DNA from: Monosiga brevicollis MX1
Taxonomy: Eukaryota; Opisthokonta; Choanoflagellata; Craspedida; Salpingoecidae
Direction of reading: 5' to 3'
NCBI RefSeq assembly: GCF_000002865.3
Contig: NW_001865049.1
Location: 838,774 to 902,773 of the forward strand
DNA: 64,000 nt
The position numbers and the translations under genes were made by a program. Positions 1 to 57,455 of the stretch are shown here, piece by piece (the first letter of the stretch is position 1; the number at the start of each line of letters is the position of its first letter). Below the pieces are notes generated by a model. That model was given only the letters and a program-made list of their open reading frames with translations. It did no database searches and was not told the origin of the DNA.

Positions 1-269
1 AATTGTTTGAAGGAATGGCAATTATAATGGAAACTAGCCCTCGCTCCTTTCTCCCTTGGCATCTCAGCTCAAGGACAGCGTTGACAATCTACACACTTGG
101 CGCGACAAACCACAACCACAAAACGCGCAGACACCGGGAGACAGAAAGAGCTGGACCGTGCGAAAAGATACATTGATGGGCAAAGGCTGAGAAAACTGTC
201 AAAAAAAACCCCCCCCAGCGGAAGATTGGGCACTGCACTCAAATCAGAACCAACCATCGATTGGCTGTT

Positions 270-3200
270 CTATTGGCTGTTGACAAAATCTCGGTGGAGG
301 ACCTCGCCGTACTGCTCCACATCGTCGATAAACTGACGGTAGTGCACATCCCAGCGGCCACCCACGCGGGCCGAGTAATGTTCTGCAAGCTGTTCGCGCT
401 CCTCGTTTGTCAGAAGCTGGCCCAAGTTGAGATCTGTGAGCACACGGAAAAACTGGTCCTTGGTCACCACGCCACGATGAATTTTATCAAAATCCTTGAA
501 ATCGTGCTGCAGTAGCATGCGACGACGCTTGACCTCGGCTGCAATCACTTGCAGCGCCTTGTTCTCGTGGCCCGACTTGAGCTCCCGCATGCGCTCCTGC
601 GCCGCGAGCTCAACGCCGACAGGTGGAATCGTCTAAGAAAGGGCCGATCACCAAAGCGCCAAGTTAAAAAAAAATAGAAAACAAGAGCACACGCAAGCAT
701 TCATATCAAACTTTAGACCATCAACCATCACGAACTGCCCCACCAGATCACAAACAAAAAAAAAAAAGAAACATGGGTCGGGCGTAGCAAATCATCGTAC
801 CGGTACGGCATCGGCCAGGGGCTGCGTGTGCAGGTCGTCCAGCGTGAACACTGACTCGACATCCCGGCAAAAACGTGTGTAGGCCACAAAGTCATTGCCT
901 TGATCCATGATATGATAGTGCTCTTCCAGAGCACGCATTTCTGGCAAGGTGAGCTCAACTTTGGCCATGGACAGGCCGGCTCGGAACTGGTTCGCGGTGA
1001 TCATGCCCCGGCGCAGCTTGTCAAAGTCACGTAGGTGCTCAGAAATACGCATCCGCTCTTTGGCCACCAAGGTCTTGACTTTGGCAAGCACGGCCTCGAA
1101 GAGGGCTGGCTCGGCTGCCTCAATGGCCGCGCGGCGGTCCTTGTTCAAAGCATTGAGGCGTTGCGTGCCTTGCAGGGTCTTGTTTTCAAGCTTCTCCGAC
1201 GGCTCAATGTCCTCCAAAAAGTCGGCGTAGTTGATCCGATCCCCATCCATGTAGTACGTCGTGACGAGCGTCAGTTCGCGCTCGGAGAGGCGGAACCCAG
1301 CCGTGTCGAGCGCTTGTTGAAACTGGCGCGGCGTCACGCGGTTCTGCCTCGTTCGATCAAAATCGCGCAAGATACCCCGCACCTCCAATGCCTGCAATTG
1401 ACATGCGCACCACTTAATGAGCGATGTAATGTGCTGAGACCTCATCTCTCATTTTGAATTTGGGGCACGCTGCATAGAGACCCACCCGATTCCGCTTTTG
1501 TTGGCGAATGTTGTCCATGGCATCGTCGTACTCCGCAAAGGTCTCATCGGTAAAGCCTGTACACAAAGCATTGAAGGATAAGCCAGTTGCACAGCCCGCT
1601 GGCAGTTATGCGCCAGTGCCTCCTTGCAAAGAGGGGGTCTCGACAAACATGTAAAAGACAAAGTGCACAAACCCCGGCCATGCGCTTACCACGGGCCTCG
1701 GGTGGCTGGATGGTGGCACGAGCCAGTGATCGGGCCGTCGAGTTCAGATCGGGCGCCACGCGAGAGGCATCTTTCTCAAGCGCCGCACCGCCGTTGAGGG
1801 CATCATCCACATCGTGCACAAAGCGCCGCCAGTCCACCGTCGTGGGTGCCGGCCGGCTCGGATCGGTATAGGCGACTGTAAGGGATCGCAAAACCTCTGT
1901 CGGAATCTGCGGCACCATTACACGCAGTCCTTGTTGGAACTGAGCCGGCGTAATGAAGCCCCGACGAAGCTTGTCAAAGTCGCGCAAGTACTCGGCAGCG
2001 CGCAAGCTTCGTGTGATACACCTGACAACCAATGTACGAGGGCGACGAGACCAAACCGCGATGAGTAGGCTGTATGGGCCGTGAAGCACAACCCGTTGAA
2101 GACATCACCGAAACATGACGCACTTGGCAACAATCCAGTCACGAGCCGAGTCAATGTCCAGCTCCACGGCCGAGTCGTCTGAAACCACGTCGGCCAGTGT
2201 GGGGAAGTCGGCGACCGAGCGCGTGTCAAAATACAGCTTGTCCGTCAAAGTATCCGCTAGTTTGGAAACTATGGCCGTCGCACCACATTAAATTATGAAT
2301 GCAAAAAGGAAAGAAGAGGTGAGTTTTGATCAGCCACGGGCCACACGCAGGTTGTTAGGTTAGACATTGGTACGAGACAAATCCTCACCGGCATCAACGT
2401 GGGCCAAGAAGGCATGATAGTTGACATCCTGGCTCTCCGGGTGCCGAAAGTAGTCGGCTAGCAAGGCCACCTGGGCCTCTGAGAAGGGACGTTTCAACGT
2501 CATGTCAAGCAAGCGATGAAACTGAGTAGTGGTGACGCCCTTGGTAAAGCCCTAATAGCAAATAACCGCGCGCCAGGTGTGAGCGCTTTGGCAAAGGCAC
2601 AGCGCTCGCATGGGTGGAGCAAGGGGCTCTGGGCGAGCACAGACCAGGCGGCGATCAAATTCTCGAAAGTGTGGATAGGGATCAAGCCGCTGAGCCGAGA
2701 TGTAGGTGCGAATATCAGCAAGAAGCTCCTCGAGCTCAGGTGACATGGGCTGGCCTTGCCCTGCGTACTCGTGCACCAGCTCAGACCGCGTCAGCTCTCG
2801 GGTTTCCGCGGTGGGCTGCTGTGTCATGTCTTCATGCATGCCCGTCAAAAACGCTGCAGGAGCAAGAGAGGTAGGGCATTGTGAATGGACAAAAAGGCTC
2901 TGCTTGGCCAGGCGCTACAACGAGCATCGACCATGATCGAGAGTTGCATCGATCACAGCAAGGACTGGCTACGCGAGGGTCGTACTCTCATCGGCATCCT
3001 TGCAAAAGTCGCGATACTTGACGCCGCGGTCTGAGGTGTAGGCATCTGCGATGCGTTGCATGTCAGCCCGCGAGAAGCGCGGAAAGCCTACGATCATCGC
3101 CAGTGCGCAAACATGGTGAGAAGAACGGTAAGGCACTCGGATGTGCAGAAACTGAACCAGTGGGGGTAGGACGAACCAGGACCGGAACAGGCCAGGCTGA

Positions 3201-10725: not shown

Positions 10726-13700
10726 ATGGCGGCCGTCGATGAGACCGACTGTTCGGCTGATCCCATTCAGATCCAGCGCTCCTCGCATTACGAAAGCTAC
10801 TATGACCCGCACACGGGCAAGGTCGGTTGGACGGAAGCTCACTAAACAAAGACCCGAGCATCCCCCTCTCGCTGCATCGCTGTGCCCTTGCGCTCGTTGT
10901 CCGCCTCCTTTTCCTCCTCCTCCTTCTACCAGGTTTTGCTTCTCGTTCAGGAGCCGCTTGTCGCCTCACACTGTGGTAAACTGCCAATTCACAATGGTAG
11001 GCCAAACTCAATCTCATGGCTCGCTCAGAGTGGATGCCCAACAGCACCAGCAGCCTTTGCATGATATGTCGCGCGGAATTTAGCTTCTTCTGGCGCTGGC
11101 GCCATCACTGCCGGTCAGTCTGTCCGTCCGCTGCGTTTCCTGTGGCCTACGTGACTTTTTTTTTTTTTTCATCTTGCCTCACCTGAACCACATGACTGTA
11201 CACATTTGCTCTTGCCTCTGGTTTCAAACTCTCGCCGTGGACGGCAGCATCTGCGGCCGCTTGGTCTGCCATCCATGTTCGCGCCAACGTCACCCCCTGC
11301 TTGCTGACCATCGGGTTTGCTCTCGCTGCTACTCGTACGCGATGGCCGACGCTGCCGGCCTGCTTTTTTGCGAGTGGTATCACGGAAAAGTGGACCGCGC
11401 GCAAAGTGTGGCACGTCTCCGCAATAGCAACTGCCACGGTGATTTCCTTGTGCGCGAGTCAAGCACTCGCGACGGCTTCCTCGCCCTCTCCTTCATCTCT
11501 TATGACAAACTCGTCCACTACCTGGTTCGTTTCATTTATCAAGCAGCAGCTTGTTCCGTCTGCTCATGCTGTATCACACACGTCAAACATTTGCCGGGCT
11601 CCCCACTAACACCTTCCTGTACCCTTTCGCCGCCTTTGTCTCCTGCTAGATACGCGGCAAGGCCGGCAGCTGGTTCATCTTTGACGCACACCGGTATGCC
11701 ACGGTCCAAGCCCTTATCGATAGCCTACACCAGCAAGGTGTTCTCCAACGCGCTGCTCCCGTCATCAATACGGAAGGGGAGCTCATTGACGGTGACCTCG
11801 AAAACTGCCCCGAGTGCCGCGTCCCTATCCCAAAGGCGGTTCGTACATCCCCGCTGGTCGGCGCACACACTTCTGTTGACCCGCATTTGACAGCTGCACT
11901 GAACTCTGAATGGCTTGGGTATCGACACGCCTTGCCGCGCATAGGATGCGTCCACTTATTTTTGCAAAGCCTGCGGCACCCGCATCCGGTCCTCCGAGGA
12001 ACAAGTGGCCATGTACCGCCGTCACACGGCAGCCCGCTCCGCTGCTACACAGCCCGCTGCGGCACGAAACTCAACCATCCGCGACACTCATGGTTACGTA
12101 CGCATTGATGATGCAACTTCTGACAAGCCGCTGGCGGCCAATTCAGGTATGGCGATGCGTATGCCTACCATTGGTGCCACGTTTTGCACTGTAGGACCGT
12201 CGTCTCACCGAGTTGCGCTTTCCCGATTTGCTCTTAACATTTAAAAAATTTCAGGCATGCTCCCGGCGCACGCGAGCTCTGGTAAACCGCTCATGCAGGG
12301 CTTGCGCAAGGCGCCCCTGCCTCCGCGTTGGCGCAACGACAAGCGGGCCCTCATGCTGGCTTCGCACAGCATTGCCGTTCAGGACGTGAGTCTGGGCGCT
12401 GTCCTGGGCACGGGCCGCATGGGTACTGTCCGCCAGGCCAAGCTCCTAAGTAAAACAGTGGTGTGCAAGATGCAACCCAATTCCAATGCCTGCCTGCACG
12501 AAAGTCTTTGCTTGCTGGGCCTGCAACATGAAAACGTCGTCGAGATGGTGGGCGTGGTCTTTGAGGACGAGCCTTTTCTCATTCTTGAGTATTGTGCCAA
12601 CCGAGACCTGGCCAGGTGCGTTGCTCAGGGAATCAGGATTATAATACCCTTGCAGACAGGATAGGCTCTTTTGCACGCACTTATGTTTTCTGGCCGCGGT
12701 GGTGGACGTGTGCGTGTAGCTACCTTCAGACCCGAGGCCGCTCGCTCGATGCCTTGCTTCGACTACGCGTCATTGCGCAGGTCAGCCCCTCTGCCCCCGC
12801 TCCCACACCGTCACCAACAGGATAGGCAACCGCGACTACTGTGACGTGCTAGCCACCAACAATGACTTGCCCGTGTCTCTGTCAGGTTGCCAATGGGCTA
12901 GAATATTTGGCCTCTCATACAATTGCCCATGGTCAGTCTCACGCGATGGCCGCCACAGTCAACGCCAGATCACGCACCATCTGACCATTCGCGCCTCCTT
13001 TCTGTTTGGTGGTCTGCGGATAGGCGACGTGGCCGCACGCAACGTGCTGGTCACGCAACACATGATCTGCAAGCTAGCTGACTTTGAGCTTGCGACCTGG
13101 GACGGGTCGGTTCTGCAAGACTATGCGCGCACCATTCCCTTGCGCTGGAGCGCTCCCGAGGTGCGTTCGTTTGGCCTGTGAGGTGTAGCCAACATGAAAG
13201 CACTGATCCCGATAGCCATGCGGCCCCGGTTCAAACTCAATCGCCATTTATCTTTGTCAGATCCTTTTACATGAGCTTCCTACCATCTTCAGTGATGTCT
13301 GGGCCTTTGGTGCGTGCAATGCCTTTTTTTCCATGCTGCCCCATTCGGCACGCACTCACCTGCCATCGCTTTTGATCGGCTACACAGGTGTGTTGGTGTG
13401 GGAGGTGTACAAGGATGGTGCCAAACCTTTTGCCGAACTCAAGCATGAGGACATCAAATGCCTTGTTCAAGGCGGTGGACACATTGATTACCCCGGCGGC
13501 GTAGGTTCCCGCAACGCCCTGTTTCACTTTTCTCCCTTTTGTTTTACCTCTTTTTTTTTTTTGAAATCCGGTCGCCCTGCCTCTCCTCACGCTCGTCCCT
13601 CCTCTTCACCCAGCTGTGTAATCGCAAAATATGGGAGTCAATTATTGAACCCTGTTTCGCAACCGAGCCCACACAGCGACCCGGCATGACTGACATCAAG

Positions 13701-23310: not shown

Positions 23311-23570
23311 GCGAGCATATCGTCGCGAGAAGCATAACCAGAACCACCGATTCATCGTCACGACATGGTCAGAGTCGGCCTGATCCCGACACGCTTGGCA
23401 AAGGCATGCTAGGTAGAGAGGTGGTGCATTTTCTACATGATCAAACAAAATTTGCTCTTGGTCTTGCTTGTCGCCTGCGGCACAGGTGCGTCCAGCCTTG
23501 ACTCCATAGGCTTGAACAATTCGTCTCGACTACGAAAGAAGTGCCGTGCGTGGAGCACTTTCAGGCCCTT
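22560..23570. other. Intergenic region upstream of the MMPL gene
   Basis: About 1 kb between the transporter start and the 3' end of the Rab-Roco gene. It holds an A-run near 23111-23127 and a (GT)n microsatellite at 23268-23309. No coding exon was recognised. Confidence 0.5.
23268..23309. repeat. (GT)n dinucleotide microsatellite
   Basis: Twenty-one near-perfect GT units in the intergenic region downstream of the Rab-Roco gene. Confidence 0.95.
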
Positions 23571-26500
23571 TTAGGATTCCCGCCCAGAACCGCACATCCA
23601 AGCCTTGGGTAAGCGTGCACAGTGGCTGCAATGGCGACGCAAGCAATCAAAGCCTCGGCATCGGGGACCAATGACACCTACCAAGGCTTCCAAGTCTTCG
23701 CTTGTGAGCGACATCAAGAGGGCACCGTCAACTTGATTTTGATGGAATGTGGCTTCAAAAGCACGGATTGGGGTCGTCCTGATCCAGGCCACCACCTGCG
23801 CCACGCTCCAGCTGGCAGGGTCGCTCGCAGCTGCTTTGGTTTTGCTGGACTGAGTTGGGACCCTTGAAGGATTGCGCTTGATGCTAGAGGAGCGCTTCAC
23901 TGGCGCTGCCGGGGCGGCAGGTAGAGGCTCGCGTGGCGCCAGTTGGCTCTTGTCTTGCACATATTCCTCATATGCACTCTGCAAGTGTGGGAGCGACTCT
24001 CGGGCTGCATGGCTGAACGCAAGAGTCAAATTCAAATGTGTCTGGGCCAAGACCCGTAGACCTTGGCCTCCGTGTCCATCTGGGGGTCCAGCAGTTTTTT
24101 GCATGTAGTTCCACAGGCGAAAAGGGGAATTGTATAATGTGACCTGCTTCAGAAGACTGCGCACAGTTGGCGGGTTGTTGAAGGGAATGCCCATGTGCTG
24201 CTCCAAAAACTCACGGGCTGCAGCCACGGTGTGCTCGTTAACTTGCTGCGGAAGTCGCTGCTCCAGGTCGTAGCTGGAGAAGAAACTCTTCATGTGTGGA
24301 AAGCCATCCGCATCCTCCGTAACCTGGACACGTGGAAACGTCAATTGGATTCCAGAATTCACCGGCCCCCGCGCACACCAAACGGATGCAGTCAATGGTG
24401 AGACCAGTCAGGTTATGTCGTTTAACATCTGATGCCTGACGCACGGAGTGGCGAGCGTACCGGGCCGCTAAAAATGGGCAGGATTCGTGGGAAGCCTCGC
24501 GCACGCTCCAACGCAACAGCCACCATGAGCTCAAGCATGAAATGATCCACTTGGGCCAGCCCAACATCCTCTTCCATACGCTCCAGGGATTTGGCTGACA
24601 CCAGCGGGACATAGACCAGGCTATCCACGGTGCCCGAGCAGGTCAGGTGAACAATGTCTAGGATGCAAAAAAGCAGCTGATGGTAGTGCGCATCCAGCGG
24701 CCCCGATCTCACCTCTTTGCAAGCGCCTCGAGGAAGCTAATGTCAAAGCGCTTGCCATGCTCCAGATTTACCACGTCCAGGAAGCTGCTGATGTGATCTC
24801 CACTATGTCCAATTGTGTGCAGGCTGAGCTCATTGGCAAACGTGGCTGCCCCTTTGGTTGAGTCGGGCTCGTGACTGCAGGGAAAAAAAAGAAAAAGTCG
24901 CGAGGTGGTCCGGCCAATTAGCCAATTATAGGTGTACGTTAAGGCAATGGGCGTGTGGCTAGGATTGCATGCCGCCAGGGGGACATACCGATACGATATA
25001 AACACGTGATAGAATTCTGCTTGCAGCTGGATGGGTAGAATGCTGCCCATTTGGTCCAGGACGTCAGGGCGAGAGAGCGTGCAGGAGTCAAGGTTCAAGA
25101 CCTGCTCCTTGCGGTAAAAAAAGTCTCGCACAACACTAATCTACATGGTACAACGGTGGTTTAGAGCTCCGACCAAAGTGAACTTCCCATCAGCCTTGTT
25201 GTGGGCCCAGCTTGGACCGAATCCAAGCCAGGCGAAAACCTACCGGTAGCAAGGTGTTCTCACACACTTCAATCAAGATGTCGTATTTCAAAGAAAAGAA
25301 CGAGCCTTTTAACACATCGGCAATCATTTCATTAATCTACATGTCATGGTCACGGTGCTCGTTAGCACACAGCTCCAAGCGGGCCCACATAGTGAGGGCA
25401 AGAGGCTTCAGACTCCACGGGATATCAAAGCGCGCACCTGATGGATCAGACCAACAGCATTTTTGGCGTAGAAACGCACAACAACGCAGCCGAGCTCACG
25501 GTCAGACTCAAGGTCAACCGCGTGCTGGCCAAAATGCACGCGGGATAAGCTCTTGGACAGCAAGGGTCGTCGCGTTATTGAGGCGCTGCCTTCTGCTCGG
25601 CTCGTCATCTCAGCCACCAGCTATTGTGATAAACCCGACATGTCAAACGAAGTCTTGGTCAGAGGTTGCTGTGTGCAACTTCCCTCTCCCCCTTCTCCCT
25701 CTCCCAACAGCGGCGCAGATGAAAAGCAATCATGCGCACATTAAGACGACCTCGGGACACACACACCTTATCGTAGAAACCTGCTGGTAGATTTGTTCGA
25801 ACTTCAAGCTGTTGATGCGTTACAGTTGCAAAGCGCGAAAGAGTTTCGCCCATGTATGGTGCAATATACAGCTATCATCAAGGGGAAAGGTAAACTTGCA
25901 TGAGTGTATGAAACCTGGGAAGAGCGGTCGGTAGGCTCACGCTCGCTAACCTCTGTTGGGCAGATGTCCTGTTGGGGCAAATCTGGCTGCCGTCGCGATA
26001 GCAAGCCTGGTATCAAGTATGCGGCACTAGTGCCATACGTAATGGGTACTGCCACTTTGAACTACAAGCGCGAGGGTGGGATGTCAAGTGTGTGAATATG
26101 CACGGAGGTGCGTCCAACTCGAGGCAGCCAGAGCACGTGCTAGGGCGCAGCTTTGTATCAGCCAGAATAGCATCCCAGTCACCCGTTGCTACAAACCTGC
26201 ATCATCAGCGCGAGAATTTGCTGCTGCTGTTGCTCATCCAGGTTGCGCAGGCGGGCATCCGCTTCAGAAGCACGGCCCAGAAAGTGTCTCACAAGTTCGG
26301 GAACAAGCACGCCTTCCTCTTGCAGGAGCTTAAAGTCATCGCTGAATTCAACTTCAGTGTCCAACGACAGCCGGTGAAGGCGGAAATCTCGCACCAGAAG
26401 CGTCATGTAGCTGAGTGGCTCGATAGGGTTGAGCACAACCACGTGTTCGAGCTGTGCCGAGTTGAAATGTGTAATTGTGCCCAACGCATGAATTGCATCT

Positions 26501-29500
26501 ACCCACTGCGCACCACGCATGGGGTCAACACACATGGAGGGTGAGGCCAGGACGGAGCAAAAGAACCCGCTGTAAAACAAAGCAGGGGCTTGCTTGTGGC
26601 ACTTTGACTCGTAAGCCGTCCTTACCTTGCGAAAGACAACATCCGAGGTTGGGGTGCGCTGACTCGTTTGAAAGGTTTCATCGTACAGCTCGGCGAGATC
26701 GCTTAGAGTGACCGTGCCCAACCCAGCTAGGGGCTGACCATGACGCTGGCGGATGGCGCGGCATGCCTCGCTGACCACTGCTTCATCCTTGACGGGGTAG
26801 GCTAGTGTGTTGATCAAATCCTGCCATACCCGGAGCTGAAGTGGCACATCCATGTTGGCAATCTCGCTCGCGTTGAGCGCATCTTGTAGCTGGGTGCGCA
26901 GCTGCTGCACGCCCGCGTCTTGCCCGGAGCGGGTATTGTCCACAGCAAAGTAGCACAGCGAGGTCGATGAGCTGTTGCTTGGCATCACAAGACGATTGGA
27001 GATTTCGTGGTGCCGCTGTGCCAGCTCACGGCGAATGCCGTCCGAAATGAGCTGTCGGGCGGTCAAGTCGGGTACTGCATCGGCGTAGGTCCCTACTAAA
27101 AAGACGGGACCGTAACTCGAGGTGGAGACCACCGAGTTGCACCACGACAAAAAGTGCTCGAGACCGGTGTAGCTGTCGTCTGGGTGCAAGCTCTCGGCCT
27201 GGCTAAAGTTGGCTAGAAGCTCTGTCATTGTGAAGAAGATGCAAATCACATTGCCCGAGCGCAAAAAACCTTCCACCAGCGACTTGAACTCCAATTGACC
27301 CCCCATGTCGAAAAAATTGACGTGTGTGCCCTCAGTCTGTGATCTGGAGGCACGCCAGCTGTGAGCGAGTCTGGCGGACCAAAGAGGACCTCTCAAGGGG
27401 TGTTGATGCATCAGCGTGACGCGATGAACGTACTCGTCTAACGAAGCCAAGATGATCTGTTGTTGCGCCCGCGTCATTTGAGCCGTTTCGGCCATGTGCG
27501 GCTGCGTGGCAGATAGGCGCTGGCCTCTTGTGTTCTTTGCGCTTTGGGAATGGCGACGTTGGTTACGCGAACGGTCGGGCTTTTTCTTCTTCTTCTTCTT
27601 ATTGTTGTTGCTGTTGTTAGACTGCTCTTCGCTGTCGCCGGTTTCGGCGAGGTCCAATGGCAAGCGTGCTTCGGCTTCCACGACGAATTGGAACTCGTAC
27701 CCCTCACGCCCTGCACTAAAGTCACGAGGCGCACTCGCAGGAGCTTGAACATTGAGGCCTCGAGATGTGTGATTGATACCATTTACCTACAGATGACACA
27801 GGTAGACAATCAGACAACTCTGGTGCCCCGGGGCACATATATTTCACCCAGGTGCGTGGCCAACATACATACCTTGACAAAAGCGTCCTGATCCAGCAGG
27901 ACATGGTCCTGATCGAGCTGACATAGTAAATCCATGCGATCGCCGCCACGCGTGGAGATACGTTCCTGTTCATGGTGAAAGAAGCATCCGGTGCGGGACA
28001 AAGATGCTTAGCTGTAGATGCTCAACTGCAGCCTGACCCAGTTTCTCAAGAGCACGTTGGTTCTTGGTGAGAGGAGGCGGAGCTGGCAGACCTCGGAAAA
28101 TTCGATGTTTTGTAGCGAGCGCGCCGTGGACGTTTTGCCTGCGGCACCGGGGCCCACTAAAACACAAACGACACAACGGTTCTTGGTCATTTTTCCTTGA
28201 GCGTCTTTGAGAGCAGCAATGAGCTTCTCCTCTCGCGTCAATGTGACCAGGGTTTCGGCTTGCAGAGGTATGCCATCGGCAGCTCGCGTGACCCTACGAG
28301 CCAGAGTAAATTCATGCTAGTGAAAGTGATGGTCCGCCGAGGAGCTGCTGGGCCACCAAAGTGCAGAGTCGAAGACCATTGGCGGAGGGGCGAGCGAGGG
28401 GTGGAGGCTTTGTAGCGAGATGCTGACGTACAGGGCGAGTGCACGCTTTGCCATGGTTTCAAATGTCACATTCACATTTGCAGCCGTTTTGGATGAAACT
28501 TCGAAATAGTCCATGTTTCTCGCATGGGCCCAAGCCGTCGCTTCCTGAGAGGTCACGCTACGGTGCTGACCATGATCGACATGGGTCCCGACAAGGCAGC
28601 ACTTGACACTTTCGTGGGCATGCTTCTGAATATTCTCGAACCACTCTGGAAGGGCATCAAAGCTGTCCTGTCTCGATGGAACATGGGGCAGGATCAATGG
28701 AAGGTGAGTGTGTGACACGCCGTTGCATACGGCGGTAGAGCACAGCAGAAACAGCACTACTCAAAGGCTCGCTGGTGGAGGGAAAATAAAAAAGAGATGG
28801 GGCAAAGCCTGCTTACGCGATCGGCCACGCTGAAAGCAAGGAGAATGGCGCGTGCCCCACGATAATAGGAATAGGTGATGGCTCTAAGAACAGGACGTTT
28901 GCAGCAAGGAAATCAGTGACTGGGGCGCCATCGTCCAGCCAAAAATGATGAAGCATCCTCGCTAGTATCGCCCGTGTTTTCTCGAACCTACCGGAAGCGC
29001 TCCGCTCCAGCGGTGTCCCACTAAAGAGGGGCATATCCACCAAACAAGATGAGGATTAATTTCAAGGCACTGCCGACAAGAAACTTTGTCATGCAATATA
29101 GGGGCCAACTGACTATCTGCAACTTGACTGCTACGCCGTCCACACCAATAGTCTTGAGGTCCTGGAGTACAAACATCAGCAGAGCCCGGGTCGAGTGTCA
29201 TGCGCAGCGGTATTGAGTAGAGAGTCAAGCCTTGATCCTGGTACATAACATAGCATTGCATTCATCAACACCCACAAAATCAACGCCGATGGTAGGGACA
29301 TGCTGCTCGAGAAAGGGTTTGCTAACGAAGCGAGCGATCAGCGCGCTCTTGCCGGTTGCGGTGTTGCCCACGACGAGAAATTTCAAGGTGCTGGCAACAC
29401 GCAATGCAAGCAGAGACCCAAAAGATCAGGGCGCAGTTTTTGGGCAGAGTCCAATACGGCCATGCATCAATGGCATGCGGAACATACTGCTGCGCGCGCC

Positions 29501-29603
29501 CGAAGGACATGGACTCCTGCTGCGGTGCTCCATCAGGGTCCTCGCTGTCATCGCTTCGCGGATCACGACGCTTCTTCCTATTCTTTGCGGGCATGAAGGA
29601 CAT
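23571..29603 (-). CDS. Rab-like GTPase fused to Roc-COR-TIR-SAM
   Basis: A leftward gene whose exons join in phase. Rab part: exons 29603-29488, 29390-29276, 29161-29114, 29020-28992, then two more. They give GNTATGKS (G1), TIGVDF, WDTAGAERF (G3), ITYSYYRGARAI, LVGTHVDH (G4, Thr-His for Asn-Lys) and EVSSKT (G5). The donor at 28431 joins the acceptor at 28293 in phase to VTRAADGIPLQAETL and the Roc P-loop GPGAAGKTS. Roc continues with ERISTRGGDRMD, FFDMGGQLEF (G3) and VGTYAD (G4), interrupted by a Lys/Asn-rich insert. COR follows to about 25400. TIR at about 25040-24460 has YHVFISYR, SFLDVVNLEHGKRF, EALAKSLVYVPLVSAKSL and DHFMLELMVAVALE. SAM near 23800 has WSVAQVVAWIRTTPI and LMSLTSEDLEALVG. 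Roco proteins are large regulatory GTPases; TIR and SAM act in immune or death signalling. COR exon ends were not all fixed. Confidence 0.82.
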
Positions 29604-45915: not shown

Positions 45916-48900
45916 TCAACTGGGGGCGGGTATTGAGCCTGCGCGTTTACACGAGACAAAGCCGACGACTTCTTCGAGAGTGAGGAGGATCGTGGTAGGC
46001 CAGCTGGTTGGTTGCTGCTTGGGGCTGCTGCCGTGCAGCGTTCCGGCCAGTCGAGCTGTGAGATCGGCGAGCGTCATCACCTACACAGGTGGCCGGCAAT
46101 TGCGCGCAGCAGTGAGACCATGTACCATGTAACATGATGCCATCAGCCAGCGAGTGGGTCAAAGAAAGGAGGTTACGCACCGTTGATTGTTCAATGCTTG
46201 CAGTATTGGCTGGGTGAAATTCATACAAGCCCGACCCTGGTGTTGCGGGTTCAAGCAAGCCATGCAGCACAAACGTGCCGTCATCGCCGCCATCAACCAT
46301 CAACCGTGTCTGATCCGCTTGCAACAGCCGCGCCAACACCTGCGTCTGTCGTCGCTGCGTACGCTGTCTAGAGTACGGGTATTGCTGTCGAGTAAAGGCG
46401 GGCAGAGGCTGGGTTGCGTTGGCACGTGTGCTGGAGCGGCAAGCCAAATCATCTTCCTGCCAAAAGCTGCTCTGCGACACCGACACCGAAACTGCACCGG
46501 GATTGGTTGAGCCCGCGGTGGCCGCAGGGGACGGGCGCCAGCGATCCACAAAACGGCCCAGCACACTAGGCTCACGCAAATCAGGGAAGCTGCTCCGTCG
46601 ACCCAGCTCGCCGCTCGTCCCCACTGATAAACTGGCTTGTGACATTTGGCTCATGCTCTTGGGAATGGGTGATTGCGATGGTAAAAGTGGTCGCGAGGGT
46701 GGGGGCGGGGGTACGGGCGGGAGCGGCAATGCTGGCGCATCATGCATCACGGGGCTCGGGGGCAGCAAGGACGGACTCAAATCTGGAGTCCATGGCGGGG
46801 GGACGCTCTCCAATTGTGCTGGCATACTCATGGCCAATCGGGGGCTCATCAGCGCGAGCTCGTTGCCTGGCGCCGCTTCGGGTCGAGTCCAGGAGACAGT
46901 GGGGCCGTGGGTGCGGCGATGTTCTGGTTCGGCGCCCAGGGATGCGCGCGCAGCAGCTCGATGCCGGGCCGCCCAGCGAGCCGCACTCCAGCGGTACAAA
47001 TGCCCACAAGCAGCCCCCACAGCAGTGCCAGCTGCCAGTGCCGCCTGCCGTAGGGCTCGGCCTCCTTGGCGCACCCTATGTGCCAAAAAGCAGTCAGATG
47101 CACGTATCACACTGCAGACTCAAGAACACACCAAGACGAAGCACAACCACAACATTCAACCACATGGCCTCATACCTCGAGGCCCGTGCATTGTGGGTTG
47201 CTGCATCTTCAGCGCCGTCTGGCGCGGGTCGGGGGTGTGGGGGGCTGGCATACAGCGCAGGAGAGGATGTGCCTTTGACAGGGCCAACGTAACCGGTTGC
47301 GGGCTCGCCGGTCGCGACGGCGGGCTCAGTCCAGGCATGGCGGTGCGAGCACATGCGCTCCGGACAGCACATGCGCATGAGATAGACAACAGCGCACAGC
47401 AGGATGAGCGAAATCAAGGACGAGAATAGGGCCAAGCCTGTGGCCCAGCTGAGATGCAGGGCATCAAAGAGGTCACCCAGGCCAAAGCCGCCGCCGGAGG
47501 TGACCTCGTCATCAATTTCAGGATTAAAGTCTTCCACACAGTCCTCCACAACGGTGTTGTTACAGTCACAGTCGCAGCCCCCCAGACAATAGCAGACGGC
47601 GGACGTGGAAAAGGTGACGCTTTTATTGACAACAAGGTAGCCGACGGCATCGAAGACCAGGACGTCACAAAAGTGATCGCCAGCTTCCTCGCTGACCACG
47701 TAAATGGGGAGCTGAAGCTGGATAAAGGACGTGATTTCGCGCTCATAGCTGGCTGAGCCTCGCGCGTTGCCATGACAAATGACGCTCACAGACACAAGGG
47801 CCGTCATGTTGGGACAGTTGGAATAGATGTTGGCCAATATAAAGCCGTTTCCAGAGAGAGCCTCGAAATTGGGTGAGCCGAGCGCCAGTGTCATGTCGCG
47901 GCACACAGCCGTGTAAACGGTGAGGTCATCAGCATTGACAGAGATGGTGATGCTGCTAATGTGCTGCTCCACTGGAAAGCGGATGCCATACCGGCTTTCC
48001 TCGTCATCCTCAACCTGGGCAAACCCATACGGATTGTAGGCAGAGAGAAGGTTAAAGGGTCGCTTACCAGCGTTGACCAGGGCCTGATCGGCGAGAAAGA
48101 AGTCGCGCGGCTGATTATTCAAGCACGTGCCCTCGCTGACGCCGCAGCCTCCGCCCTTGCCATGCAAGTAAAAGGCTAGGGGCTCCACGCCGATCTTGTC
48201 GCAGGTGGAACCCGTCATGTCAATGTCCGACTTGTCCACGACCAGGTAGGTGTCCATTCCATCCTTGGTCTGCTCGTGGGTATGCCAGTTGTCAACCGTC
48301 TCCAAAATGGGAGCCAGCAAGGTTTTGGAGCTCATGTCACGCAACTGCACAGGCGTGGCAAAGTCCCCGCCAAAGACGACGGACACTGCACCGTCGCTCG
48401 TTAGACCCCCGCGTAGATGTGGTCCCACCTCCAAGACGCCCTGACAGCGAAAGTCGGCGTACTCGTCTGGCAATTCCACGGTGCAATCCGGGCTGGCAGC
48501 CGGCACATCATCCTGTGTGGCATGGCTGTAGCCGGGACCCACAGCGTACTTGCGGTAGATGGAGACGTACACCTTGAAGCGGATGTGGCCCGGATCAAAA
48601 TCATAGACGCCGTACCAAAGCTCATCCGAGTATCTGAAGCAATGCGCGCTTTGTTGGCCTTTGCCAAAGAGGCCGCAGTCCAAATTGGCCCGATAGCTGT
48701 CGGTGGGCATGCCAATGCCCAGCTGGTCTGCTGTGGAGCAGCGGCAGCAAAAGCCTTGGGAGCCTTCCACCTTGGGCGCGATCAAGGGACAGACAGGGCA
48801 GCAAAGTGAAAAAGAGAAAAAGAAAACAAAGAAATAGCATGATGAGGATGAGTGCAGGCTACCTGTTTGCAGACTCAAGGGGGCAAACACGAACAAGCAC

Positions 48901-49477
48901 TTCAACAGGTCAAACCATTGATAGAGAGCCTTGACGGACGGCTGCGACCAGACTCACTTTCTTGCCACCCCCATCAATGAGCCAGCCACAGCTGGGACTG
49001 GAGTGGTACGGACTGTCTTTACATCCCGTCTTGTCTCCTGAGCCAAAGAGGCCACCCAGTAGGGTTTGAACGGGTTGAGCGATTTCGTAGGGTTTGTTGT
49101 TGACTACACCACGGTAACGCAGGGGGTATTCAATCTAACCAGACACACGCTGCTGTTAGCAAAAGGCTCTGGTTCGGTAAGCAAGCTGGCGCAGGCCGCA
49201 CCGATACACTGGTTTTTTGCACCACAATGATAAACTCATTCTCGCTGTCGCTGATGGCCCCATCCTCCGTGCGAGACTGGGTGAGGTGATAATACTCGCC
49301 ACCGCCCGTGCTGCCCAAGACGCCAAGATTGAGAACCATCTTACGCTCGCAATTGGGCTCCAGGCTTCCATCTCGCAAACACCGTTCAATCTGCCCAGCT
49401 GCTTTGATTTGGGCTTGAACAGCAGGGGATAAACCCATGATCGTGAAACAGGCCAGCAATGCAGTGAACCAGAGCAT
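45916..49477 (-). CDS. HAP2: HAP2/GCS1 gamete fusogen
   Basis: A leftward gene. The start at 49477 gives a signal peptide (MLWFTALLACFTIMGLSPAV) followed by IKAAGQIERC, as in the family. The second exon reads YPLRYRGVVNNKPYEIAQP and SPSCGWLIDGGGKK; the long third exon (about 48770-47165) opens EGSQGFCCRC. The HAP2-GCS1 block is clear: STCDKIGVEPLAFYLHG, GVSEGTCLNNQPRDFFLADQ and GKRPFNLLSAYNPYGF. A membrane helix (WATGLALFSSLISLILLCAV) lies near 47400. A long cytoplasmic tail, rich in Pro, Ser and Arg, follows in at least one large exon (about 47080-46195), ending near 45916 by phase. HAP2 drives gamete membrane fusion and shares the class II fusion fold. The join between the membrane part and the tail exon is likely but not proven. 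Confidence 0.92.
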
Positions 49478-50694
49478 GGCGCTGGTGTGGCAGCGCCGAG
49501 GATGATGGCCGTGTCTCTCTAATGACGAGTCCACTGGAACCCGCTCGACCAAGTAGTGGCGGCAGAAAATGCGGCATGCCAACCTTGAGCGGAAAAGTTG
49601 CTTCGCGTTGCTATCTCCCTAACCAGGACAACCTTTCTTTCCAACGCCATCGCCACCAGGGTGGAGGCAGATCCCATTGCTACCACAACCGATCGAGTGA
49701 GAATGATCGCACCAGCCATCCCAGCCGCTTTTTTCATTGGGCAAGTTGGGGTCGGGCGCTGGTTCGGCACCCGTTCAAAATCCTGTCCGCAGTTTTTTTT
49801 CCGCAAGGGCCATCACGCTGACATATAAAACGCGACCAAAATCACACTTTAAATACATTTACTGCTTGTAATGGTCACTAGTTACGCTTGCTGTAAAGTG
49901 CGTGACATTGGGCTGTTGCCGTGCATGCAGGTATGCGCGGCGGACAGAGCCGTTCTCGGGTAACGACGAACAGTGGCACGACGATGGTATCACAACCATC
50001 GGCATGGCGAAGGAGTACAACGCACAACGCACAACGCAGAACAGGCTCCGCTCAGCTTGGCTTGGCTTGGCTTGGTGCACTGCCCGCTTGCGGACATTCA
50101 GATCCCATTGCCACCTGTCGTTGCGAATCCCATGCGTGCATTCGGTGAATCGTGCGTTGAATCTGGCAGCTTCCGCGTCACACTTTTCCCACTTGCGTTC
50201 ACCACTTGACCCCACCGAGTGCAACAGGTTAGTCCAGCTGCCGCCGCCTCATTCCTCGACCCCAACGAGATACTCTCCAGTGGGCAGGAATTTCTCTGCT
50301 TCCATGCAGCTATTGTTTGAACGCTGTTGGCTCTTTCACGGGTGGTGATCCAACTACACCTGCAATTGCTCTCTGCCAGAGACACCCGAAGCTGCCTGCT
50401 CTCACGGGCACCCATCCTGTACTATAGCTTGCGCAGCCCATTTTCCGGATCGTCCGGATCCTCGTCGTGTGCTGCACCCAGTCCAAGGCAGCCCGACCCG
50501 TGCCCCCTTTGCCTTGCACCGAGCAGGCAAAGGTTGATATCACGAGGGCCTCGGTTTTCTCGTCCACTTGCAAGCCGCCTGCACACGAATCGCTCCAAAA
50601 GACATTGCTGCTTTTGTACGCGCGCACGGCCTGTTGTCGTGTCTGAAGCGACTTCCTCAAGCCGCCTGTTAGCTCGCCTCTTGACACCCTCGTC
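49478..50694. other. Divergent promoter region between HAP2 and the peroxidase-like gene
   Basis: About 1.2 kb with no convincing exon. It contains a short (TTGGC)n run (TTGGCTTGGCTTGGCTTGG) at about 50058-50077. Both flanking genes encode secreted-pathway membrane proteins and point away from each other. Confidence 0.5.
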
Positions 50695-53600
50695 ATGGCG
50701 ACAACAACGCCGGCACAAAAGTTTCGTGCTGGAGTTGGCCGGCGAGCCGTCTTGATCTGTGCTTGCGCCTTACTCGGGGCTTTGGTTGCCCCGACTGCTG
50801 CCTACACAGACCTGGATCTCCTGGAGTACGCACCACTAGACGGCTCTCACACGCGCGATGGCCACGTCGGTGCCACCTTGCACTCGCGTTGGCAGGGCGT
50901 GCCTCGCGTGCGGCGAGCCGATGCTACTTATGATGCACACAGCCAAAACACTGACGAGACCCCTGATGCCCATTTGGCGCCGGCCCCACGTATTGCAGTG
51001 GATGCTTTGCTTCCGGGTGTGATGCCAGATGGCGTTTCTCACACCCACAACGCGCTGCTGCCCTACTTTGCCCTCTTTGTCAACCTTGATCTCCTGCAGC
51101 TGGCTGAACAGGAGCGGATTTGCCGAGTCAATGCCACTGCCACAAACTGCACCGTTGCTATCAACAACGCAAGCTCCGTGCTTGACGCCTCGCAGATCTA
51201 CGGCGTCAATGCTGCTGATCATGCCCAAATCCGCACTGGAACCGATGGTACGATTCGCACCTTGCACACGGGGGCACTTGAGCATCTGACACGGTGCCAA
51301 GGGCTGGCCTGCGTGCTGGCCACCCACGTCCAATCGAGCACCCGTGGTCTGGTGACCGCCTTCAAGCTGATTTTCGAGCGCGAGCACAACCGCTGGTGCC
51401 GCACGCTGAAGCATGCCTTCCCCAGCTGGGGGGATCAGGAGCTCTTTGATGAGGCACGCAAGCATGTGATTGCCGTGTTGCAGTCAGTCACCTACGGCGA
51501 GCTTCTACCAGCACTCCTGGGTGAAACCTGCCCCCGCATGGATGGCAACTCCTTGGATACGGGCACCGAGTACATGCCGGAGGACGATAGCGCTCAGGTA
51601 CGAGGGCTAGACACGCGCTCGACCATTGTCATCCCCGCGTCGTGCCACTGCCCGTGGTCTTAGACCTGTCCCATCTCACAGTAATTTGGATTGGTTTTGC
51701 TTTTGTTCGCTCGTGGCGCTTTGAACCTTGCTTTTAGGTGGGACCCGAATATGTTGCGGCGGCAGATCTGCTCATGGCCACGGTGCCTCAGCGAGTAGAG
51801 CGCCGTGCTGTACGCGACAGGCGCGTGGCCCGCGACGCTGAGGTGCACGATCTGTTGGAGAATCTACTTGACAACACCACCATAACCATTGAGGAAGTGG
51901 CCACGCTCATTCTTGGCGCCACCTACCAACCCGCCAACCTCTTTATGGGTGAAGCCAGCAACAGTGCCATTTCGCGCTTTGACATTGTTGAGAGTGCCAT
52001 TGAACGGGCCCGTGCCCTGGGCGTAGTCCCGTACAACCAGCTGCGCCGCGCATACGGCCTGGATACGGCTGCCGACTTTGACGAAGTGACCACCGACGGC
52101 CGTATTGCTTACCTGTTGCGCACCAGCTATGGTGCCAACATTGAAGAGTTGGACGCATTTGTTGGAGCGGCTGCCGAGGAGCCCATTCGCGGCAGCATCT
52201 TTGGCGAAACACTCTCTCGCGTAATTTGCGGAACCTTTGCCCGCCTGCGCAAAAACGATCCTCTACACTACGAAAGCGGCGCCCACTTCAACGCGTCTGA
52301 GCTTGGCCGCCTGCATCGCATTAGCCTCGGCAACATCCTGCGTGCCAACGTGCCCGAGCTCGCGAGCATCAACCTCAATCGGGTCTTTTACCTGCCAGAG
52401 CCACAGAACACGGAAGCCGTCAACGTCGACTGCGTTGTTTCGGAGTGGATGACCACCGGTCCCTGCTCGCATTACTGCGGCGGTGGTTCCCGCCCGCAGG
52501 TGCGCAAGGTGCTTCGTGCGCCGCGCGGTGCTGGTCTTCCCTGCCCCGAACTGCGCCGCGCTGTTGGCTGCAACTTGAAGCGCTGCACGGATGATGACTT
52601 GAGCAACATTAGCGCCACGCGGTCCTGTGTTGTGGGATTCTGGGCCAACTATGGCCCATGCCTCAACGGGTCTCAAGTTCAGGGTCGCCCAGTGCTGCGC
52701 CCTCCCACCACGGGTGTGGATGACTGCCCCGACGTCGAGCGTCGCATCTCGTGCACAGACAATATGCTGACTGCTGCCGAATTGGAGGAGGCCGACGACG
52801 ACGCCCAGCTTCTCGAGCCTACCGAGGAGCCTGACGAGGACGAGAACGAGGAGGACGAAGGAGAGACCGAGCCGGAGACGTGCGTCATGTCCGACTGGTC
52901 GGAGCTCTCTCCCTGCAGCCGTTCGTGTGGGGGTGGTGTACAAATGCAGCAACGGACCATCATCTCGCGCCCTTCGTACAAGACCAAATGCCCGAGCTTG
53001 GTCAAGGTGATGCAGTGCAATCTGCATCCCTGTGCTTCAACCCCGCCGACAGCGGGAGTTGGCACAACCACATCCACCGATGATGCAGGTACCGAGGCCA
53101 GTGCGGGCCAGGCATCTTGTGCCGGTCAGGTAGTTGTCCTTCAGGGTCGCCGTCAGCAGGCGTGCAGTGACTTGGCGCACGGCGCCACCTGCAGTTGGCT
53201 CACCGAAAACGAGATGCAGCGGTGCTCGGTACGTTTTGAAATAGCCTCCGTGCTCTTGCCTGCATGTTGCGACGGGTTGTCGTGCTTGTGTCGCGCGTCG
53301 GCATAGGGCCAGGAGCCTGCATCACCCTTTTTTTCAGTACCACGGGGCCTCACTCACACATCTTGGCGGACAATTCCATGCGCTTTTAGGTCTCGTGCTC
53401 CAATGGCACGCTCAGTGCGGCTGCCTGCATCACCGTGCAGAACGAAAACAAGGACCTCTCCGAGGCCGAGAATGGGTCAGGGGATAGCGGGTCGCAGGTG
53501 GGCGGTGATGACGCACGGGGCAAGTACGGTACCATCACCGCAATGTTGGTCGGCGTGGCCCTGGTCATTGGCCTTTTGGCTGCGGCATATACATGGCATC

Positions 53601-56344: not shown

Positions 56345-57455
56345 ATGGCTTCGGCGCTGCGGCAGCGGCTGCTGCGGGCAGTGATTTACGAGGTTAGGCA
56401 GATGTCTTGGTGTTGTTGGCGCGCTCAGAGCACAGGGTTGGCTTTTGACTCATGATTGCTTCGGCTCGCTGCCCCGTCCCGCCCTGGCTCACTTGCGGAC
56501 GTTGGACGTTGATGACAGGATAACCACTTGGTGGCCTTGAACAAGTGGCGCGGCCTGGCCGTGCAGGATGCCGCGGGTTCACCATCAACCGTCCTAAGCA
56601 ACGTGGACGTCTTTCAGCAGAATAAGGATGGCTTTGTGCCTCGGTACGAGACTACAACCGTGGCCTGCCCTTGTTGATCCTGCCGTTGCTCTGCTTCACA
56701 CATATACCCGCCCTCAACGGAAACTGGCTTTTGGCACCACTCTTTATCCTCCCTCTAGGTTGGCGCATCGGCTGGATCAAAACACAACCGGCGTGCTGGT
56801 TCTGGCCAAAACGGCAGAGGCAGTCTTGCGCTTGAATCGCCTCTTCCAGCTTGGCGCCGTAGCCAAAACCTACGAGGCCGTGCTTGCAGGCCAAGTCACC
56901 AAGCCCACGGGCACCCTGAAGGGCATTCCCGAGCTGATCACGGAAGAAGAGGATGCGAATTCAGAGCTCACATCCAATCAGCCCCTGTTCAAGACATCAG
57001 CGAGCTGGAGCCATAGTACAGCCCAGAGCCACTACACCGTGCTGGCCTCAGCACAAGTCAATGATGGCCGGCCGAGTCGCACCAAGCCTTGGCTGACACG
57101 TGTGGAGCTGCGACCCACCACGGGCTACAAGCATCAGCTACGCATCCAATGTGCCGATGGACTGCGCGCGCCCGTGCTGGGGGACAAGCGCTATGGTGGA
57201 GGTCAGGAACAGGTCTCGCCCATCATTCTTCAACATCTTCAACGCCATGGTTTGCGCACCGCGGCCCACCCCTATGGCCTGGTCATGCACCTACACGCCA
57301 AACAGCTTGTTATCCCAGGCTACAATTGGGACGGCTCAGACCTGGTCCTTCGCGCCACGCTGCCAGACCACATGCAGCTGACCATCGACGCCTGCGGGCT
57401 GCATCCAGACCAGCAGTCAAGACCGACCCGACAGCCCACTCGACAGACAGCCTGA
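56345..57455 (+). CDS. RluA-family pseudouridine synthase
   Basis: Three exons in phase: 56345-56392, 56519-56643 and 56759-57455, giving 289 residues. The chain shows NHLVALNKWRGLAVQDAAG (motif of the first strand), then LAHRLDQNTTGVLVLAKTAE with the catalytic Asp at codon 56775-56777, KTYEAVLAGQVTKPTGTLKG, TRVELRPTTGYKHQLRIQCA and APVLGDKRYG: the RluA order is complete. The enzyme converts uridine to pseudouridine in rRNA, tRNA or mRNA. The N-terminus (MASALRQRLLRAVIYE) is short and basic and might be a mitochondrial presequence, as in RPUSD3/RPUSD4; this is inference. No S4 domain was seen. The start follows a (CT)n tract. Confidence 0.93.

Follow-up and report, generated by a model that had tools for sequence, protein, structure and literature searches.

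Does a single gene of the choanoflagellate Monosiga brevicollis MX1 join a Rab-like GTPase to a Roco-type core with a TIR and a SAM domain behind it, or do these domains belong to neighbouring genes? The question comes from a 64,000-nucleotide stretch of contig NW_001865049.1 (positions 838,774 to 902,773 of the forward strand), called here the window, whose numbering is used throughout. An earlier note had proposed one protein over 23571-29603. The sequence analysis presented here indicates that the locus very probably encodes one protein, with the predicted order Rab-Roc-COR-TIR-SAM-CaaX. The last element is a C-terminal Cys-aliphatic-aliphatic-X pattern.

The gene consists of 20 exons on the minus strand, from 29603 to 23433, and encodes 1342 residues. 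All the exons are in phase, and no internal stop is present. The 19 introns of the final hand model are all GT-AG, with lengths from 79 to 149 bases. We built this model by joining open stretches at GT-AG sites with the help of homologous reading frames. It was then corrected using a paralogue, L046. A spliced protein-to-DNA alignment with the L046 protein as query placed 18 introns in the window, and 18/18 were identical to the hand model. Intron 1 falls outside this query. The basis for exon 1, intron 1 and the start codon is the open frame and the splice sites alone.

The single gene of the earlier note is maintained by this model. Its junction from 28432 to 28293 is also supported, by the spliced alignment and by the same intron in L046. 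On the other hand, the 3' boundary had to be moved, and two introns had been overlooked. A stop at 23571 was rejected as the 3' end because the SAM domain lacks its last helix there. A final intron (23681-23568) sets off the last exon (23567-23433), and the gene ends 138 bases past the earlier end. The added exon matches L046. In whole-protein Pfam scans it raises SAM_2 from 20.5 to 28.0 bits (cut-off 20.5) and SAM_1 from 22.2 to 25.1 bits (cut-off 23), so that both profiles lie above their cut-offs. A single long exon at 26179-27786 was also discarded. The spliced model removes introns 27433-27344, 26625-26506 and 26196-26062 from this exon or its end, the first of them being an additional intron inside what appeared to be one exon.

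All the named domains (Rab, Roc-COR, TIR and SAM) were found in the proposed order. The Ras profile matches residues 42-201 of the final 1342-residue model with 193 bits (3.5e-57). The SAM segment alone scores 32.3 bits with SAM_2 and 30.3 bits with SAM_1. The Roc score of the whole model (127.7 bits) is mostly due to the Rab domain, and a segment without Rab was scored separately. This segment, with the linker and before the removal of intron 27433-27344, gave 34.8 bits (cut-off 27). After the removal of the intron, Roc-COR gave 35.6 bits, and 3/3 paralogues match the Roc profile. COR-A matches its segment with 28.3 bits (1.8e-6; below the cut-off of 35.3), and TIR_2 with 20.2 bits (8.7e-4; below the cut-off of 28). 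Each of these two profiles is also matched by 3/3 paralogues. The sequence supports a switch of Roco type that is joined to TIR and SAM. We file the protein as a probable variant of the Roco family with a new layout. This assignment leans on Roc and on position, COR being below its cut-off.

Two relatives, L046 (C37) and L047 (C52), emerged from genome searches with pieces of COR-TIR, Roc and Rab. These searches covered the source genome (39.5 megabases, 57 contigs). In bacterial/archaeal and viral collections, the Roc-COR alignment gave no confirmed relatives (108 and 48 pattern matches); these collections are non-eukaryotic and uninformative on orthologues. L046 has the same order as the window protein and also ends in a CaaX box, with 947/1286 aligned residues identical. 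The identity differs between parts: Rab 81/159, linker 18/36, Roc without its insert 192/230, COR 336/390, TIR 125/144, the spacer between TIR and SAM 96/138, SAM 37/63 and the C-terminal tail 5/20. Each of the 18 introns of L046 corresponds in residue and phase to one of the window introns 2 to 19, and the one at the Rab/Roc junction is among them. Seventeen of the 18 are as the alignment program placed them, and one, with an assumed GC donor, is not independent. The intron concerned (3237-3385 of L046, in Rab) shows an apparent GC donor; the later GT donor chosen by the program gives an insert of 14 residues. A forced alignment of the first exon of L046, which spanned five introns, was not accepted. 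An in-frame ATG stands just upstream of the L046 Rab.

We compared the proportions of non-synonymous (pN) and synonymous (pS) differences between the window copy and L046. Synonymous differences approach saturation (pS 0.754 overall); judging by them, the duplication is old. For the same reason the pN/pS values are rough, and they were computed before intron 27433-27344 was found. They were lowest, at 0.08 to 0.14, in COR, TIR and Roc without its insert, and rose to 0.31 in SAM, 0.43 in the Roc insert, 0.44 in the linker, 0.46 in Rab and 0.80 in the tail.

The other relative, L047, is a Roc-COR-TIR-SAM protein with 483/1078 residues identical to the window protein. Its SAM domain, spliced by eye, scores 55.6 bits. 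Its end, also read by eye, shows no CaaX box. The genome searches gave no Ras match in L047, a soft absence, since one search missed even its own Roc. A Rab is likely lacking in this copy. A first alignment had forced a Rab there at noise level; we rejected it, as the genome searches list no Ras/Roc match at that place. Long open frames lie upstream of the L047 domains (222-3059), possibly its N-terminal part. Scans of two of them gave no Pfam match with a useful E-value.

The linker between Rab and Roc bears on the choice between one gene and two. Over residues 205-238 (34 codons), the window copy and L046 differ at 11, 9 and 21 first, second and third codon positions. The differences are mostly at the third position, and therefore we conclude that the linker is translated in the Roc frame. 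For residues 202-238, 18/36 residues are identical, with pN 0.305 versus pS 0.698 over 36 codons. In the window, no in-frame ATG precedes M239 (codon 28190-28188) in the linker, and the frame is open from 28316 without an earlier Met. Three ATGs lie further upstream: one shares the frame, though it stands ahead of the stop at 28319-28317 in that frame, and the other two are in different frames (frames read by hand). A separate Roc start is disfavoured because this conserved linker has no in-frame ATG before M239. This Met lies downstream of the linker, 12 residues ahead of the Roc P-loop, at a position where L046 has Thr and L047 has Lys. The shared junction intron also speaks against it as a start. 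The linker of L046 contains ATGs; a separate start is less firmly excluded in that copy, whose case rests on the shared intron.

The junction intron (28294-28431) has 138 bases, a multiple of three, and close to its end the frame meets a stop. If it were retained, a short form of Rab would result. The intron is not conserved between the window and L046 (local score 12; 300 shuffles, mean 9.5 and maximum 15). None of the hexamers AATAAA, ATTAAA, AATATA and AATGAA occurs in it in either copy.

The C-terminal tails end in SKTKSKFCLIM in the window and in KKRSAAKVCIVM in L046, whose box is CIVM after a basic stretch. The CaaX pattern is thus present in both copies. Outside the box and the basic stretch the tails have diverged (5/20 identical). 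Met at the last position of a CaaX box favours a farnesyl group. Both copies with a Rab carry the box and the copy without a detected Rab does not, three copies being too few for a rule.

Is the TIR domain an enzyme? A profile of the three TIR copies, compared with PDB, gave nine matches at E<=1. They consist of six SARM1 entries, two flax resistance proteins and one acetyltransferase subunit. The best value was 0.16, with SARM1 tied with a flax resistance protein. Two of the three TIR members also show weak matches to SAVED_TIR of PADLOC (0.0069) and to a TIR-like FxsC family of NCBIfam. The residue Glu1061, within LEL (codon 24532-24530), is invariant in 3/3 copies. The copies have FLDVVNLEHG or FFDVVSLEVG around it, and the stretch around the catalytic Glu of SARM1 is FIDVEKLEAG. 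The strongest competing explanation accepts the fusion as real and takes the TIR for a non-enzymatic scaffold, which would make the protein an adaptor in trafficking or signalling and not an effector that cleaves NAD+. The divergence of the domain, below its Pfam cut-off, would agree with this, as would His or Asn in the place of Trp four positions before the candidate catalytic Glu and the nature of SAM and Roc-COR as assembly modules. However, the Glu of LEL is invariant, and the surrounding letters resemble those of SARM1. We consider the scaffold a serious contender, with somewhat less than an even chance.

The Rab-like domain is closest to Rab1A among PDB structures (1e-42). Names of Rab, Sec4 or Ypt1 occur on 57/60 of the best rows (best 60 of 898 matches), which supports its Rab-like sequence. 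Its motifs are G1 GNTATGKS, G3 WDTAGAE, with Gln replaced by Ala, and G4 THVD; L046 shows WDTAGSE and TQAD. Both copies have therefore lost the usual catalytic Gln of Rab (WDTAGQE) and the NKxD of G4. The P-loop, the switch I Thr and the G4 Asp are retained. In Ras-like proteins, altered G3 and G4 motifs predict slow hydrolysis and weaker nucleotide binding. Because both motifs are altered, the sequence suggests that this domain does not cycle like an ordinary Rab. The same substitutions (Ala, or Ser in L046, at the G3 Gln; THVD, or TQAD in L046, for NKxD) could mean that the domain is a pseudo-GTPase, retained only as a protein-binding fold. Nevertheless, the P-loop Lys-Ser/Thr, the switch I Thr, the G4 Asp and the remaining Ras profile (176 bits in the window and 177 in L046) are kept. 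THVD is also similar to THLD, the G4 motif of the LRRK2 Roc, which binds GTP. We regard a pseudo-GTPase as unlikely. A Rab unit for membrane addressing, as formerly suggested, is plausible in itself. Yet an internal Rab cannot bear its own prenylated tail: the G domain runs on into the linker without C-terminal cysteines, and the lipid signal would be CLIM at the end of the protein.

That the locus holds two adjacent genes, one for a small Rab with its end near 28317 and one for Roc-COR-TIR-SAM from M239 (28190), is very improbable. Read-through of the junction intron into the stop at 28319-28317, the short distance from M239 to the P-loop, the faster divergence of Rab and the copy without a detected Rab would suit it. 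Against it, the linker is conserved as protein with no ATG to start it in the window, M239 is not kept in the relatives, L046 has its junction intron at the same place and phase, neither junction intron contains any of the four polyadenylation-like hexamers, and a Rab that stopped at 28317 would lack C-terminal cysteines to be prenylated.

For the one protein, the best reading is a Roco held by a lipid anchor, in which TIR and SAM are clustered by a dimer change that depends on the nucleotide. We give this about an even chance. The CaaX box would be farnesylated and, with the preceding basic stretch, would keep the protein at a membrane. At the N-terminus, the Rab-like domain, without the usual hydrolysis residue, could be a built-in regulatory element, slow or locked. 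It might meet Rab partners or dock on the remaining chain, as free Rabs do for LRRK2. Roc-COR would shift between monomer and dimer with the nucleotide. Dimerisation and SAM-SAM contacts could then bring the TIR domains together. The clustered TIRs would either cleave NAD+, for which all three copies keep a Glu at the expected place, or act by recruiting further TIR proteins; an immune role may be supposed. The sequence itself shows the gene structure, the domain order, the motifs and the conservation in a paralogue, while the steps of this mechanism are inferred. The literature offers parallels for two of these steps. LRRK2 is recruited to membranes by Rabs, and a tetramer of LRRK2 bound to Rab29 has been solved (PMC12337188). 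It has been postulated that Roco proteins are G proteins which become active on dimerisation (PMC6337361).

A more specific form of this idea, a membrane-anchored switch of Rab, Roco core, NAD+-cleaving TIR and polymerising SAM, of a kind not yet described and in a close relative of animals, would be a self-contained counterpart of Rab-LRRK2 with a SARM1-like or NLR-like output. As a whole it seems improbable. If true, it would directly show that Rab and Roco became linked either before animals or on two occasions.

Several points weigh against the lipid-anchored Roco. First, the COR-A and TIR_2 matches are weak. In the whole model COR-A reaches 23.8 bits (4.6e-5; cut-off 35.3) and TIR_2 17.5 bits (0.0061; cut-off 28), both below cut-off. 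A whole-genome search with the COR-A profile gave zero matches. The corresponding TIR_2 search gave nine, none at the window locus or the two paralogues. Against PDB, the single Roc-COR sequence matched no Roco structure. The Roc-COR profile met 4wnr, a leucine-rich-repeat protein, at only 0.16, under two Hsp90 rows.

Second, the window protein guided the building of the L046 model, which makes the two gene models not fully independent, and the start in the L046 model is tentative. Rab evolves faster than COR, by the identities given above, and the pN/pS values share the roughness already mentioned. Judging from L047, neither Rab nor CaaX would be needed for the core, and the association of the two rests on three copies. 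Third, Glu1061 was placed by eye at the putative position of the SARM1 catalytic Glu, which is a weak point. Finally, the role of Rab29 is described as context-dependent, and the physiological relevance of the tetramer as still to be established (PMC12337188). In a proposed cycle of LRRK2, GTP favours the monomer (PMC6337361), so that either nucleotide state might be the one that clusters the TIRs.

How new is this layout? With the Roco family (LRRK2, Dictyostelium and bacterial members), the window protein shares a chain in which a COR-like region comes after Roc, with G3 (DMGGQ) and G4 of Roc type. It differs in having no LRR or kinase in the Pfam scan, a Rab in front, and TIR, SAM and CaaX behind. 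A long basic insert between the Roc P-loop and G3, and a COR below the Pfam cut-off, are further differences. The order of SARM1 is ARM-SAM-SAM-TIR. The window protein resembles it in joining TIR and SAM in one chain, in the candidate catalytic Glu and in a TIR profile with SARM1 among its best PDB matches. In contrast, its TIR precedes a single SAM, no ARM family appears in the Pfam scan, and GTPase modules take the place of ARM. By anything tested, it does not seem to be a SARM1 orthologue. As family memberships, the SARM1-like and NLR-like switches of the earlier note are not upheld: SARM1 is met by the TIR profile only at E 0.16, and the Pfam scan of the final model contains no NACHT, NB-ARC or LRR family. 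Weak AAA_16 and nSTAND3 rows, below cut-off, lie over the Roc P-loop.

A ROCO protein with a TIR domain in a eukaryote is already known and is not itself new. The red alga Chondrus crispus has a TPR-ROCO-TIR protein (PMC11378527), and TIR is among the domains in a figure legend on Trichoplax Roc-COR proteins (PMC4104024). ROCO and TIR are common to these and to the window protein; the available parts of those sources mention no Rab, SAM or CaaX for them. The Rab29-LRRK2 pair also sets a Rab beside a Roco on membranes (PMC12337188), as two separate animal proteins. The window protein is, in contrast, one chain, with a Rab nearest to Rab1 in PDB and no kinase family in Pfam. In choanoflagellates, Kinase TLRs, Kinase TIRs and SARM1 homologues have been described, with Ank, Arm and SH2 as TIR partners (PMC6040629). 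They share with the window protein a TIR joined to other signalling domains, and a word count of the main text found no word beginning 'Roc'. Another source reports a few SARM1-like TIRs in choanoflagellates (PMC13142454). A myotubularin survey of 2010 reports two Monosiga Roco proteins, without a layout in the part available (PMC2927912). A Rab fused to a Roco, or the order Rab-Roc-COR-TIR-SAM, was not found in the open-access literature, searched in part.

Features of the predicted gene and protein (positions in the window)
Feature	Residues	Position	Strand	Remarks
Whole coding span		23433..29603	-	20 exons, 1342 residues; hand model and paralogue spliced alignment
Exons 1-5		29488-29603, 29276-29390, 29114-29161, 28992-29020, 28817-28883	-	
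Exons 6-10		28432-28667, 28092-28293, 27873-27965, 27434-27786, 26626-27343	-	
Exons 11-15		26197-26505, 25951-26061, 25767-25871, 25438-25620, 25244-25336	-	
Exons 16-20		24989-25140, 24713-24874, 24461-24620, 23682-24323, 23433-23567	-	
Rab-like GTPase domain	40-201	28440..29389	-	exons 2-6; Ras 193 bits whole model, 176 bits alone
Rab-Roc linker	205-238	28191..28292	-	conserved as protein in L046; frame without ATG ahead of M239
Roc GTPase domain with long basic insert	239-576	26875..28190	-	P-loop GPGAAGKT, G3 FFDMGGQ, G4 GTYAD
COR region	577-966	25021..26874	-	COR-A segment match below curated cut-off; 336/390 identical in L046
Divergent TIR	967 to about 1110	24246..25020	-	TIR_2 segment match below cut-off; 3/3 paralogues
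SAM domain	1253-1318	23508..23819	-	SAM_2, SAM_1 above cut-off; last helix from exon 20
CaaX box CLIM	1339-1342	23436..23447	-	after basic SKTKSKF; predicted prenylation site

Further matches lie elsewhere in the window. An open frame at 47094-48953 (minus strand) has a strong match to the gamete fusion factor HAP2-GCS1 (186.1 bits), a sexual fusogen in a choanoflagellate. On the plus strand, 36189-37109 matches the MICAL Rossmann domain (87.1 bits) and 56598-57455 an RNA pseudouridine synthase (66.9 bits). By eye only, an open frame at 11084-11890 (plus strand) contains an SH2-like stretch (WYHGKVDRAQSV...FLVRES). Two open frames at 50647-53306 (plus strand), also by eye only, resemble a haem peroxidase of the animal type with thrombospondin type 1 repeats after it. 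An exon of an Unc18 gene is identical over 56/56 residues to PDB 2xhe_A 'UNC18', an entry from Monosiga brevicollis, which agrees with a choanoflagellate source.

What gives the fusion its interest is the pairing of LRRK2, the Roco of Parkinson's disease, with free Rabs, and the question of how it arose. A fused Rab and Roco, present in two old choanoflagellate paralogues, would be a natural linked version of that pair, with no problem of matching Rab to Roco. The CaaX box offers a simple, testable route to membrane attachment. At the other end of the chain, TIR and SAM point to Roco switches as possible drivers of TIR outputs beyond the NLR and SARM1 families.

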